Source: Emticicia agri (lineage in GTDB: Bacteria > Bacteroidota > Bacteroidia > Cytophagales > Spirosomataceae). Taken from it: 33,435 nucleotides of DNA. Positions 32,312 through 32,907 of the stretch are shown here, one piece after another. The translations under genes were made by a program, and so were the position numbers. The DNA lies in contig NZ_SEWF01000056.1 in the NCBI RefSeq assembly GCF_004168285.1, forward strand, positions 1-33,435. Reading direction: 5' to 3'. The notes under the pieces were generated by a model. That model was not told where the DNA came from. It was given only the letters and a program-made list of their open reading frames with translations, and searched no databases. The number at the start of each line of letters is the position of its first letter. Within the stretch, counting starts at the first letter, position 1.

Positions 32312-32342
32312 TTGACATATATAAAAACTCCTGCTACCTTTG
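32312..32342 (+). promoter_or_regulatory. Promoter of the tRNA genes
   Basis: TTG (32312-32314), a 20-nt spacer, TACCTTTG (32335-32342). Both boxes are exact matches to the Bacteroidota consensus and lie 32 bp upstream of tRNA-Gly. Confidence 0.85.
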
Positions 32343-32374: not shown

Positions 32375-32447
32375 GCGGAAGTAGCTCAGTTGGTAGAGCG
32401 TAACCTTGCCAAGGTTAAGGTCGCGAGTTCGAGACTCGTCTTCCGCT
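32375..32447 (+). tRNA. tRNA-Gly(GCC)
   Basis: 73 nt, full cloverleaf: acceptor GCGGAAG / CTTCCGC, D-arm GCTC / GAGC, anticodon stem TAACC / GGTTA around the loop TTGCCAA (anticodon GCC at 32408-32410), T-arm GCGAG / CTCGT (last pair G-U) with TTCGAGA loop, discriminator T. The CCA end is not encoded. Confidence 0.97.
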
Positions 32448-32457
32448 CGAAAAGTTC

Positions 32458-32485
32458 AGCACCCATTAAAAGGTGCTTTTTTTTT
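32458..32485 (+). terminator. Terminator-like hairpin between tRNA-Gly and tRNA-Leu
   Basis: A 6-bp GC-rich stem (agcacc / ggtgct, 32458-32463 / 32472-32477) with an 8-nt loop, followed by a run of nine T residues counting the last stem base. It looks like a full terminator, yet only 16 bp separate it from tRNA-Leu, leaving no room for a separate promoter. Confidence 0.8.
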
Positions 32486-32501: not shown

Positions 32502-32825
32502 GCCGGGGTGGTGGAACTGGTAGACACGCAGGACTTAATAATGTAAATTTGAGTGCCTTGATGGAAACATCAAGAGTAGAATCGCTTAAATTCGGGGAAT
32601 CCTTCACAATGAAAATTGCAAATGGCAATCCCGAGCCAAGTCTCACGAAAAGTGAGAAAGGTGTAGAGACTTAATAGGCGATACCTAAAGTTCATTAAAC
32701 TGAACCACGGTAAAGAGAAAGTCCAGACCACAAATCCATTAATGAATGGAGCGGCGAAAGTCGTAGTTGGTAAGAAAATCCTGTGAGCCGAAACGCTCGT
32801 ACGGGTTCGATTCCCGTCCCCGGTA
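32502..32825 (+). tRNA. tRNA-Leu(UAA) interrupted by a group I intron
   Basis: Exon 1 is 32502-32536 and exon 2 is 32775-32825, giving an 86-nt mature class II tRNA. Acceptor GCCGGGG / CCCCGGT (G1-U72 wobble), D-arm GTG / CAC, anticodon stem CAGGA / TCCTG, loop CTTAAAA with anticodon TAA split as T | AA, long variable arm GAGC / GCTC, T-arm ACGGG / CCCGT with TTCGATT loop, discriminator A. CCA is not encoded. Without removal of the insert the anticodon loop is not formed, so splicing is required for a working tRNA. Confidence 0.95.
32537..32774 (+). ncRNA. Group I intron in the tRNA-Leu anticodon loop (238 nt, ORF-less)
   Basis: Lies between U34 and A35, as in cyanobacterial/plastid tRNA-Leu introns (subgroup IC3). 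Exon 1 ends in U; the last intron base is G (32774). Helices traced: P1, exon GGACTT (32531-32536) with guide gagt(g)cc (32551-32557), U-G at the splice site; P2 cttgatg / catcaag with GAAA loop (32557-32574); P3 32581-32587 / 32676-32682; P4 tcggg / cccga (32592-32596 / 32630-32634); P6 32641-32646 / 32652-32657; P7 gact / agtc (32668-32671 / 32720-32723); P8 gttca / tgaac with acc / ggt outside (32683-32711); P9 tccatt / aatgga (32735-32750) plus a GAAA-capped hairpin at 32751-32764. Core strings such as CCGAGCCAAG, GTAGAGACT and GGTAAAGAGAAAGTCC closely resemble cyanobacterial introns. No endonuclease gene. Confidence 0.93.
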
Positions 32826-32861
32826 CAAGTTATGCAAAAAACAGCATAACAAAAGTAAAAC

Positions 32862-32907
32862 AAAAAGAGTATAAGAAGCTGATTACTAGCAACTTATACT
32901 CTTTTTT
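32862..32907 (+). terminator. Rho-independent terminator after tRNA-Leu
   Basis: A perfect 14-bp stem (32862-32875 / 32893-32906) with a 17-nt loop and a T-run on the right arm; the A-run on the left arm would make it work on both strands. A smaller perfect 7-bp hairpin (32829-32835 / 32844-32850) precedes it, directly after the tRNA 3' end, and may mark the site of 3' processing. Confidence 0.9.

Follow-up and report, generated by a model that had tools for sequence, protein, structure and literature searches.

The tRNA-Leu(UAA) gene of Emticicia agri (assembly GCF_004168285.1) is interrupted within its anticodon by a 238-nt insert that was confirmed as a group I intron. Very probably, it is a group I ribozyme that interrupts the only tRNA-Leu(UAA) gene detected in this genome, belongs to a non-cyanobacterial lineage, and represents a nuclease-free descendant or recipient within the family Spirosomataceae. 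The gene lies on contig NZ_SEWF01000056.1, whose whole analyzed stretch of 33,435 nt is referred to here as the window. The initial annotation of this DNA had been right in naming a group I intron, its insertion site, and the phylum Bacteroidota.

Gene, fold, and predicted splicing of the intron

With introns allowed, ARAGORN called tRNA-Leu(taa) at 32502-32826 with a 238-nt intron at 32537-32774 splitting the anticodon U|AA, the same coordinates at which the initial annotation had placed the split; run without introns, it missed the gene. The search with the group I model RF00028 that had been proposed as a check matched at 32527-32749 (64.1 bits, E 3.2e-14), above the gathering score of 50. 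Helices P1, P2, P3, P4, P5, P6, P7, P8, P9, P9a, and P9b can all be drawn using standard pairs only, and the P3-P8 core of the window intron includes the P3/P7 pseudoknot (Table 1). The core previously read as P1 to P9, with a U at the 5' splice site and a terminal G, is also supported by covariation, and the GAAA loops described on P2 and P9 are present, the latter sitting on P9b. P10 is possible by eye between TTT (32548-32550) and AAA (32775-32777). By resemblance, the intron most likely belongs to subgroup IC3.

Covariation was scored in an alignment of 25 tRNA-Leu introns, i.e., the window intron plus 24 hand-picked among the 60 best listed nhmmer matches, all non-cyanobacterial. Of the structure cells, 92.2% were paired compared to 29-44% with partners slid, a contrast that favors the scored fold because it was drawn from the window sequence. 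Two-sided changes were seen in 43 of 68 pairs against a mean of 30.7 in shuffles, with a covariation score of 0.414 versus 0.141, the shuffles ignoring relatedness. Neither the splice-site U.G pair nor the terminal G varies (25/25), and P7 is 100% paired in the 25 sequences, with four invariant pairs and one with two-sided changes. The outermost P3 pair of the window intron is broken in 20 of the 25. The precursor folds 4.1 sd better than its shuffles (z -4.1).

Table 1. Coordinates of the interrupted tRNA-Leu(UAA) gene, its intron helices, its surroundings, and a second intron-bearing tRNA of the same genome (window positions, except in the last row)
Feature	Position	Strand	Detail or basis
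TAnnTTTG motif upstream of tRNA-Gly	32335-32342	+	promoter-like
tRNA-Gly(GCC), just upstream of tRNA-Leu	32375-32448	+	ARAGORN
Hairpin and T-run between tRNA-Gly and tRNA-Leu	32458-32477	+	hairpin scan; terminator-like
5' exon of tRNA-Leu(UAA)	32502-32536	+	ends GGACTT (anticodon U); ARAGORN and alignment to empty sites L101-L108
Group I intron, 238 nt, no nuclease gene	32537-32774	+	terminal G at 32774; RF00028, ARAGORN, covariation
P1	32533-32554	+	32533-32538 (ACTTAA) with guide 32549-32554 (TTGAGT); U.G pair at splice site
P2, GAAA loop	32557-32574	+	two-sided changes in 7/7 pairs
P3	32581-32682	+	32581-32587 with 32676-32682; two-sided changes in 5/7 pairs
P4	32592-32634	+	TCGGG 32592-32596 with CCCGA 32630-32634
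P5	within 32592-32634	+	32601-32602 with 32624-32625
P5a	within 32592-32634	+	32607-32610 with 32615-32618; window-specific, 38% paired in relatives
P6/P6a	32635-32662	+	drawn fold, covariation
P7, guanosine-binding helix	32668-32723	+	32668-32672 with 32719-32723
P8/P8a	32683-32711	+	drawn fold, covariation
P9, P9a, P9b (GAAA loop on P9b)	32727-32771	+	drawn fold, covariation
3' exon of tRNA-Leu(UAA)	32775-32826	+	begins AAAATCC (anticodon AA); ARAGORN and joined-exon search
Terminator-like inverted repeat and T-run 3' of tRNA-Leu	32862-32906	+	read by eye
tRNA-Gln(CUG) intron loci	L001 (G000:C31:65932-66182), L032 5487-6226		same genome as window (G000)

A tRNA-Gly(GCC) gene also adjoins the Leu gene in several other Spirosomataceae loci, and the hairpin with T-run between the two genes recurs in all eight intronless loci of the same genus. 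No separate promoter for tRNA-Leu was seen; the motif upstream of tRNA-Gly is promoter-like for Bacteroidota. The inverted repeat 3' of tRNA-Leu is missing from the hairpin-scan listing because its loop exceeds the limit of the scan.

An intact second tRNA-Leu(UAA), the caveat raised in the initial annotation, was not found in the assembly (99.93% complete, in 174 contigs). A genome search with the joined exons returned only the two gene halves above 37 bits, and among 51 RF00005 hits 50 received an ARAGORN anticodon, none of them UAA, with a single weak hit (on contig C25) uncalled; a tRNA on contig C10 proved to be tRNA-His. The other Leu anticodons of the genome are CAA, UAG, and GAG, plus CAG in a tRNA array. 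Among the Leu codons of 20 window open reading frames (ORFs), UUA is the most frequent (228/685). Since the sole UUA decoder found is interrupted, the gene should be spliced for the cell to read UUA. In the predicted precursor, the 5' exon would pair with the guide TTGAGT to form P1, a guanosine bound at P7 would cut 3' of the anticodon U, and the freed 5' exon would then attack after the terminal G, joining U to AA and restoring the tRNA. Catalysis and splicing in the cell are predicted. A gene killed by an insert that does not splice could be suspected from the hairpin with T-run upstream of tRNA-Leu, but the core helices of the intron are intact and the only UUA decoder found would be lost from a genome in which UUA ranks first among the Leu codons of these ORFs, so we regard this as extremely improbable.

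Distribution of the lineage

Under strict filters, RF00028 matched 36 of 150 family genomes, spread over 16 of 36 genera, and 30 of 395 genomes of the phylum. Intron hosts in the family include tRNA-Leu(UAA), tRNA-Gln(CUG), tRNA-fMet, and tRNA-Arg(UCU), some loci having been miscalled by ARAGORN and reassigned from the exon sequence. Exact copies of the Leu introns of two family genomes (G029 and G091) are present in sequences deposited for Arsenicibacter rosenii and Larkinella punicea, both Spirosomataceae. A tRNA called Arg(UCU) by ARAGORN bears group I introns of ~190-250 nt in loci L286, L288-L290, L293-L295, and L307, which are from other Bacteroidota families and have the intron at another anticodon-loop position.

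The survey of tRNA-Leu(UAA) in related genomes that the initial annotation had recommended uncovered empty sites close to E. agri. Eight of the 10 congeneric genomes compared carry an uninterrupted 87-nt tRNA-Leu(UAA), identical to the joined exons in two, with the same exon junction in all eight; at the best empty site the flanks align up to the junction (87% upstream, 94% downstream). The remaining two genomes, G128 and G123, gave no exon match at E 1e-6, and at a looser limit G128 gave two weak matches and G123 none. Across the 150 family genomes, E. agri included, 143 matched the exons and 7 did not; counted from the listing, the 143 comprise 120 with a full-length uninterrupted gene, 19 with a Leu intron, and 4 unclear.

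Genome contigs were searched with a pattern for the short-P1 Leu(UAA) intron, the guide of which (TTGAGYNC) makes it blind to the usual cyanobacterial TTGAGCCTT. At least 118 stretches were obtained, of which 102 were called tRNA-Leu(UAA) with an intron, 100 with clean borders; among 80 stretches checked singly, 4 proved to be false matches without an intron, and another 5 could not be called clearly. The 100 clean-border introns among the matches listed, 3 of which repeat family loci, were distributed over Alphaproteobacteria (31), Bacteroidota classes (28), Gammaproteobacteria (22), Betaproteobacteria (7), other Pseudomonadota (6), Bacilli (4), Blastocatellia (1), and Cyanophyceae (1). At least 99 Leu introns lie in named Pseudomonadota, Bacteroidota, Bacilli, and Acidobacteriota records. 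In viral contigs the pattern matched 56, 51 with an intron, 2 intronless, and 3 undecided; 48 of the viral Leu introns have clean borders and 38 of these are distinct. A distribution outside cyanobacteria wider than usually stated, one of the two origins offered in the initial annotation, is supported by the presence of these introns in several phyla.

Loci L110, L134, and L144 are among the viral contigs having a tRNA-Leu(UAA) with a group I intron, many of these introns being ~190-200 nt long. L110 is identified as a phage by the RNA polymerase, primase/helicase, DNA polymerase, and amidase genes beside the intron.

An HNH nuclease family at tRNA-Leu(UAA)

In 8 of the 150 family genomes the Leu intron measures 722-745 nt and carries an HNH-like gene in the P1 loop. 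The product, ~175 residues in the six intact copies, has a helix-turn-helix-like N terminus, and CxxC, HH, N, and CPNCH motifs can be read in its core. A profile of six sequences gave nine hits in 8 of the 150 genomes, all within a Leu intron, one with an internal stop and one in two frames. The window copy encodes no such endonuclease: there is no ORF of this kind in its 238 nt, and the E. agri genome gave no profile match. The nuclease ORF continues into the ribozyme, with the guide, P2, and P3 encoding its C terminus. All 16 family introns tested, the window intron among them, have this C-terminal frame open for at least 21 codons, which RNA constraint alone could explain. Two introns (L016 and L042) retain at their 5' end what appears, by eye, to be the beginning of the long form.

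The same nuclease family was found in 21 of 25 Leu introns longer than 420 nt (5 from the family, 20 others). The 21 comprise 5 introns of the family, 7 gammaproteobacterial plus 1 from Muproteobacteria (antisense), 3 from Bacilli (sense), and 5 viral, of which 4 have the gene antisense and 1 sense. One of the Bacilli introns, L272, has the N-terminal part only, and the nuclease was not found in the long viral introns L123, L132, L140, and L150. The nuclease of family intron L043 matched those of L136, L187, and L270 with E values of 3e-42, 3e-29, and 3e-27. All 12 Leu-intron nucleases of alignment A3 matched PHROG 10822 (HNH endonuclease), and a Pfam scan of 12 members returned HNH; for one family nuclease, the Pfam match was weak (HNH_3, E 0.0015) and below the cut-off. 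The AlphaFold model (pLDDT 73.7) gave no fold match at E <= 0.001, the best being McrA at 1.5e-3, and searching solved structures by profile yielded a single weak match (E 0.15).

The E. agri genome has a second group I intron, 665 nt long, in tRNA-Gln(CUG), which contains an HNH-like ORF close to the 5' end of the intron; in family genomes, introns at this site occur with and without such an ORF. The tRNA-Gln ORF and the Leu-intron nuclease are alike over 64 core residues only (30%, E 0.005). Elsewhere in E. agri, a segment of contig C5 (L096, 3755-10020) contains 15 densely packed tRNA genes of many types, some of odd length, resembling the tRNA array of a mobile element or phage.

Outside the family, nuclease hits were obtained in 11 of 369 genomes from the class of a Thiotrichaceae record, 6 strong and 5 weak. 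Five of the strong hits are in a Leu(UAA) intron and the sixth is decayed and lies directly after an intact tRNA-Leu(UAA), the five weak ones being elsewhere. The decayed copy (L471, in the gammaproteobacterial genome G983) is perhaps the remnant of a lost intron or of a free-standing copy. In viral contigs at least 557 nuclease relatives were confirmed, and the best 80 were analyzed; as the query was taken from tRNA-Leu introns, these 80 lean towards tRNA-Leu. Fifteen are inside tRNA-Leu(UAA) introns, counting four that ARAGORN labeled Phe or Stop but whose exons identify the tRNA as Leu. Among the other 65, a tRNA was present within 250 nt in 39, compared to 98 of 868 random places in the same loci. 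The nearest tRNA is an uninterrupted tRNA-Leu(UAA) next to a free-standing nuclease in 33 of the best 80, another tRNA is adjacent in 6, and 26 have no tRNA within 250 nt, some of these having a tRNA-Met, Thr, or Ile 300-480 nt away. When the best 80 were clustered at 80% identity, 33 of 46 representatives were tied to tRNA-Leu(UAA), 13 inside and 20 beside it. Confinement of the family to tRNA-Leu introns had been considered and failed, only those 15 of the best 80 viral relatives being inside one.

These associations suggest that the nuclease may cut at tRNA-Leu(UAA). Tentatively, and giving it slightly less than even weight, we propose that tRNA-Leu(UAA) would be the address of a dedicated homing system in which one HNH family, either free-standing beside the gene in phages or intron-borne, would have brought introns into this gene in Bacteroidota, Pseudomonadota, Bacilli, and phages while moving from one intron loop or strand to another; the window intron would then be a nuclease-free stage.

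Origin of the intron and relation to known systems

The best nhmmer matches after the window intron itself were Leu introns of the family, the nuclease-bearing L043 and L023 first, followed by introns of Saprospiria, Proteobacteria, and Bacteroidota tRNA-fMet. The cyanobacterial comparison set comprised 26 Leu introns among the 30 best-scoring loci, 108 of 194 genomes having a match. A quick tree of 185 cores retained 12 of the 48 viral Leu introns and omitted the nuclease-bearing L028, L033, and L035, duplicates, and long introns that could not be trimmed. In it, the window intron is sister to L023 (95, starred), a nuclease-bearing Leu intron of the same family, inside a clade of 13 family introns (97, starred). 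A careful tree of 69 rows recovered the same pair (95/93, starred). The window intron also has the other traits of the non-cyanobacterial Leu(UAA) lineage, i.e., the U|AA site and the guide TTGAG followed by T or C. The tRNA-Gln introns moved between trees, from the cyanobacterial side in the quick tree (97, starred) to beside the family Leu introns in the careful one (99/96, starred).

Transfer from a cyanobacterium, the other origin offered in the initial annotation, is disfavored by these data and appears very unlikely. The site and the general core are the same, and an AU test of the window intron joined with cyanobacteria was marginal (p 0.0699, not below 0.05), so that the phylogeny proposed earlier does not reject such a grouping. 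However, both trees place the window intron outside the cyanobacterial clade, formed by all 26 cyanobacterial Leu introns in the quick tree (93, separated from the window intron by a starred branch) and by 13 rows in the careful tree (100/100); its sister is a family intron, and no cyanobacterial intron is among its 60 best nhmmer matches listed. The placement of the cyanobacterium Myxacorys (L244) among gammaproteobacterial introns in the quick tree (99, starred), i.e., within the non-cyanobacterial lineage, looks like transfer the other way. The P4 contrast with cyanobacteria drawn in the initial annotation stood for the sample, with TCAGG/CCTGAG in 25 of 26 cyanobacterial Leu introns and TCGGG/CCCGAG in 13 of 16 family introns, but not as a clean lineage marker, since other Bacteroidota families have the CCTGAG form too, in 4 of their 5 Leu introns, a point in favor of a cyanobacterial donor. 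So is the position of one Leu intron from another Bacteroidota family, the long-branched L299, on the cyanobacterial side of the quick tree. The shared site across phyla could also mean that unrelated group I introns independently entered an anticodon loop that is a convenient target; fMet and Arg tRNA introns do fall among the Leu introns in the quick tree, and uniting all Leu introns in a single clade does not give the best tree, although the AU test does not reject it (p 0.218; family Leu introns p 0.421). We consider this improbable, given that the non-cyanobacterial Leu introns have guide, 3' end, and core sequence in common and that the nuclease genes at the site are homologous across Bacteroidota, Pseudomonadota, Bacilli, and viral contigs.

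Within the non-cyanobacterial lineage, the intron may have been gained recently by E. agri or inherited from an ancestor of the genus and a neighboring genus, with precise loss in the sister species. A RecQ tree was built from 29 of 30 chosen genomes, 18 of them intron-bearing by choice, G105 being left out for having remote matches only. E. agri (G000) groups with the intronless G027 and G085 (100/98) and then G062 (100/99), and G025, the host of the sister intron L023, stands next to this subclade (82/77), a position that also fits descent with repeated loss. The intron and RecQ trees further agree in outline (G000 near G025; G048 with G091; g31; the g5/g3 groups), as expected under inheritance, and the six state changes that explain all intron states cannot tell gain from loss. 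Yet with E. agri nested among these intronless species, and five more in the sister group, loss would need several events and gain one, and 120 of the 143 matched family genomes are uninterrupted. Ancestral descent is therefore a real possibility that we nevertheless lean against, recent transfer into E. agri being the history that would take fewer events. Phage and plasmid records were rejected as direct donors, the best phage matches, in two records of uncultured 735-kb phages, reaching 70.9% across the entire gene and the best plasmid matches (Bradyrhizobium) 66% over 98%. The record of the jumbo phage Atu_ph07 (490,380 bases) was also among the phage matches. Plasmid matches H52-H58 (Acinetobacter, Salmonella, E. 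coli, and Klebsiella), unannotated, cover 75-85% of the query at ~65% identity and are perhaps group I introns.

The window intron resembles the cyanobacterial tRNA-Leu(UAA) intron in its tRNA, U|AA position, general fold, and, as predicted for the window, splicing chemistry. The cyanobacterial introns nevertheless form a separate clade, mostly with guide TTGAGCC and P4 TCAGG/CCTGA, where the window intron has TTGAGTGC and TCGGG/CCCGA. In Microcystis/Nostoc, Rudi (2002) reportedly described a divergent tRNA-Leu(UAA) intron with closer kinship to the tRNA introns of proteobacteria, and Vepritskiy (2002) is said to have described one in a gammaproteobacterium; neither is from Bacteroidota, and neither is known to contain a nuclease gene. 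The cyanobacterial intron is generally thought ancient, according to PMC4476775.

The premise of the initial annotation that this site is only cyanobacterial or plastid does not hold, as PMC4853749 reports an interrupted tRNA-Leu-TAA, with a putative group I intron, in Candidatus Thiomargarita nelsonii and Beggiatoa BOGUAY. There, as in the window, the same tRNA is interrupted outside cyanobacteria, but the hosts are Gammaproteobacteria, and that study did not establish the structure or type of the intron. Group I introns are also described in tRNA-fMet and Ile2, in other tRNAs and with other guides (PMC8450103), and fMet and Arg(UCU) introns are present in the family of E. agri too. The PHROG 10822 entry, matched by Leu-intron nucleases, is silent on tRNA-Leu, and the window itself has no nuclease gene. 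The phage homing endonuclease SegB is implicated in breaks within tRNA-containing sequences (PMC13096335); it is a GIY-YIG enzyme near tRNA-Tyr, whereas the nuclease described here is of the HNH type and near tRNA-Leu(UAA).

No report of a Bacteroidota or Cytophagales tRNA-Leu(UAA) intron, or of a nuclease tied to tRNA-Leu(UAA), was found in the open-licence literature, and the word "Bacteroidetes" is absent from the main texts of PMC6125680, PMC3984707, and PMC11835236. A 2014 review (PMC3984707) placed all phage introns observed by then in protein-coding genes and noted little evidence that bacterial introns move horizontally from one species to another; the phage contigs with tRNA-Leu(UAA) introns do not fit the former statement.

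The window intron is of an already known group I type, and its background is mobile and phage-linked. A second, wider lineage at tRNA-Leu(UAA), partly with a nuclease and partly in phage contigs, makes the mobility of tRNA introns across phyla directly testable. The part that merits experiment is a nuclease and an intron having tRNA-Leu(UAA) as their common address in bacteria and phages.
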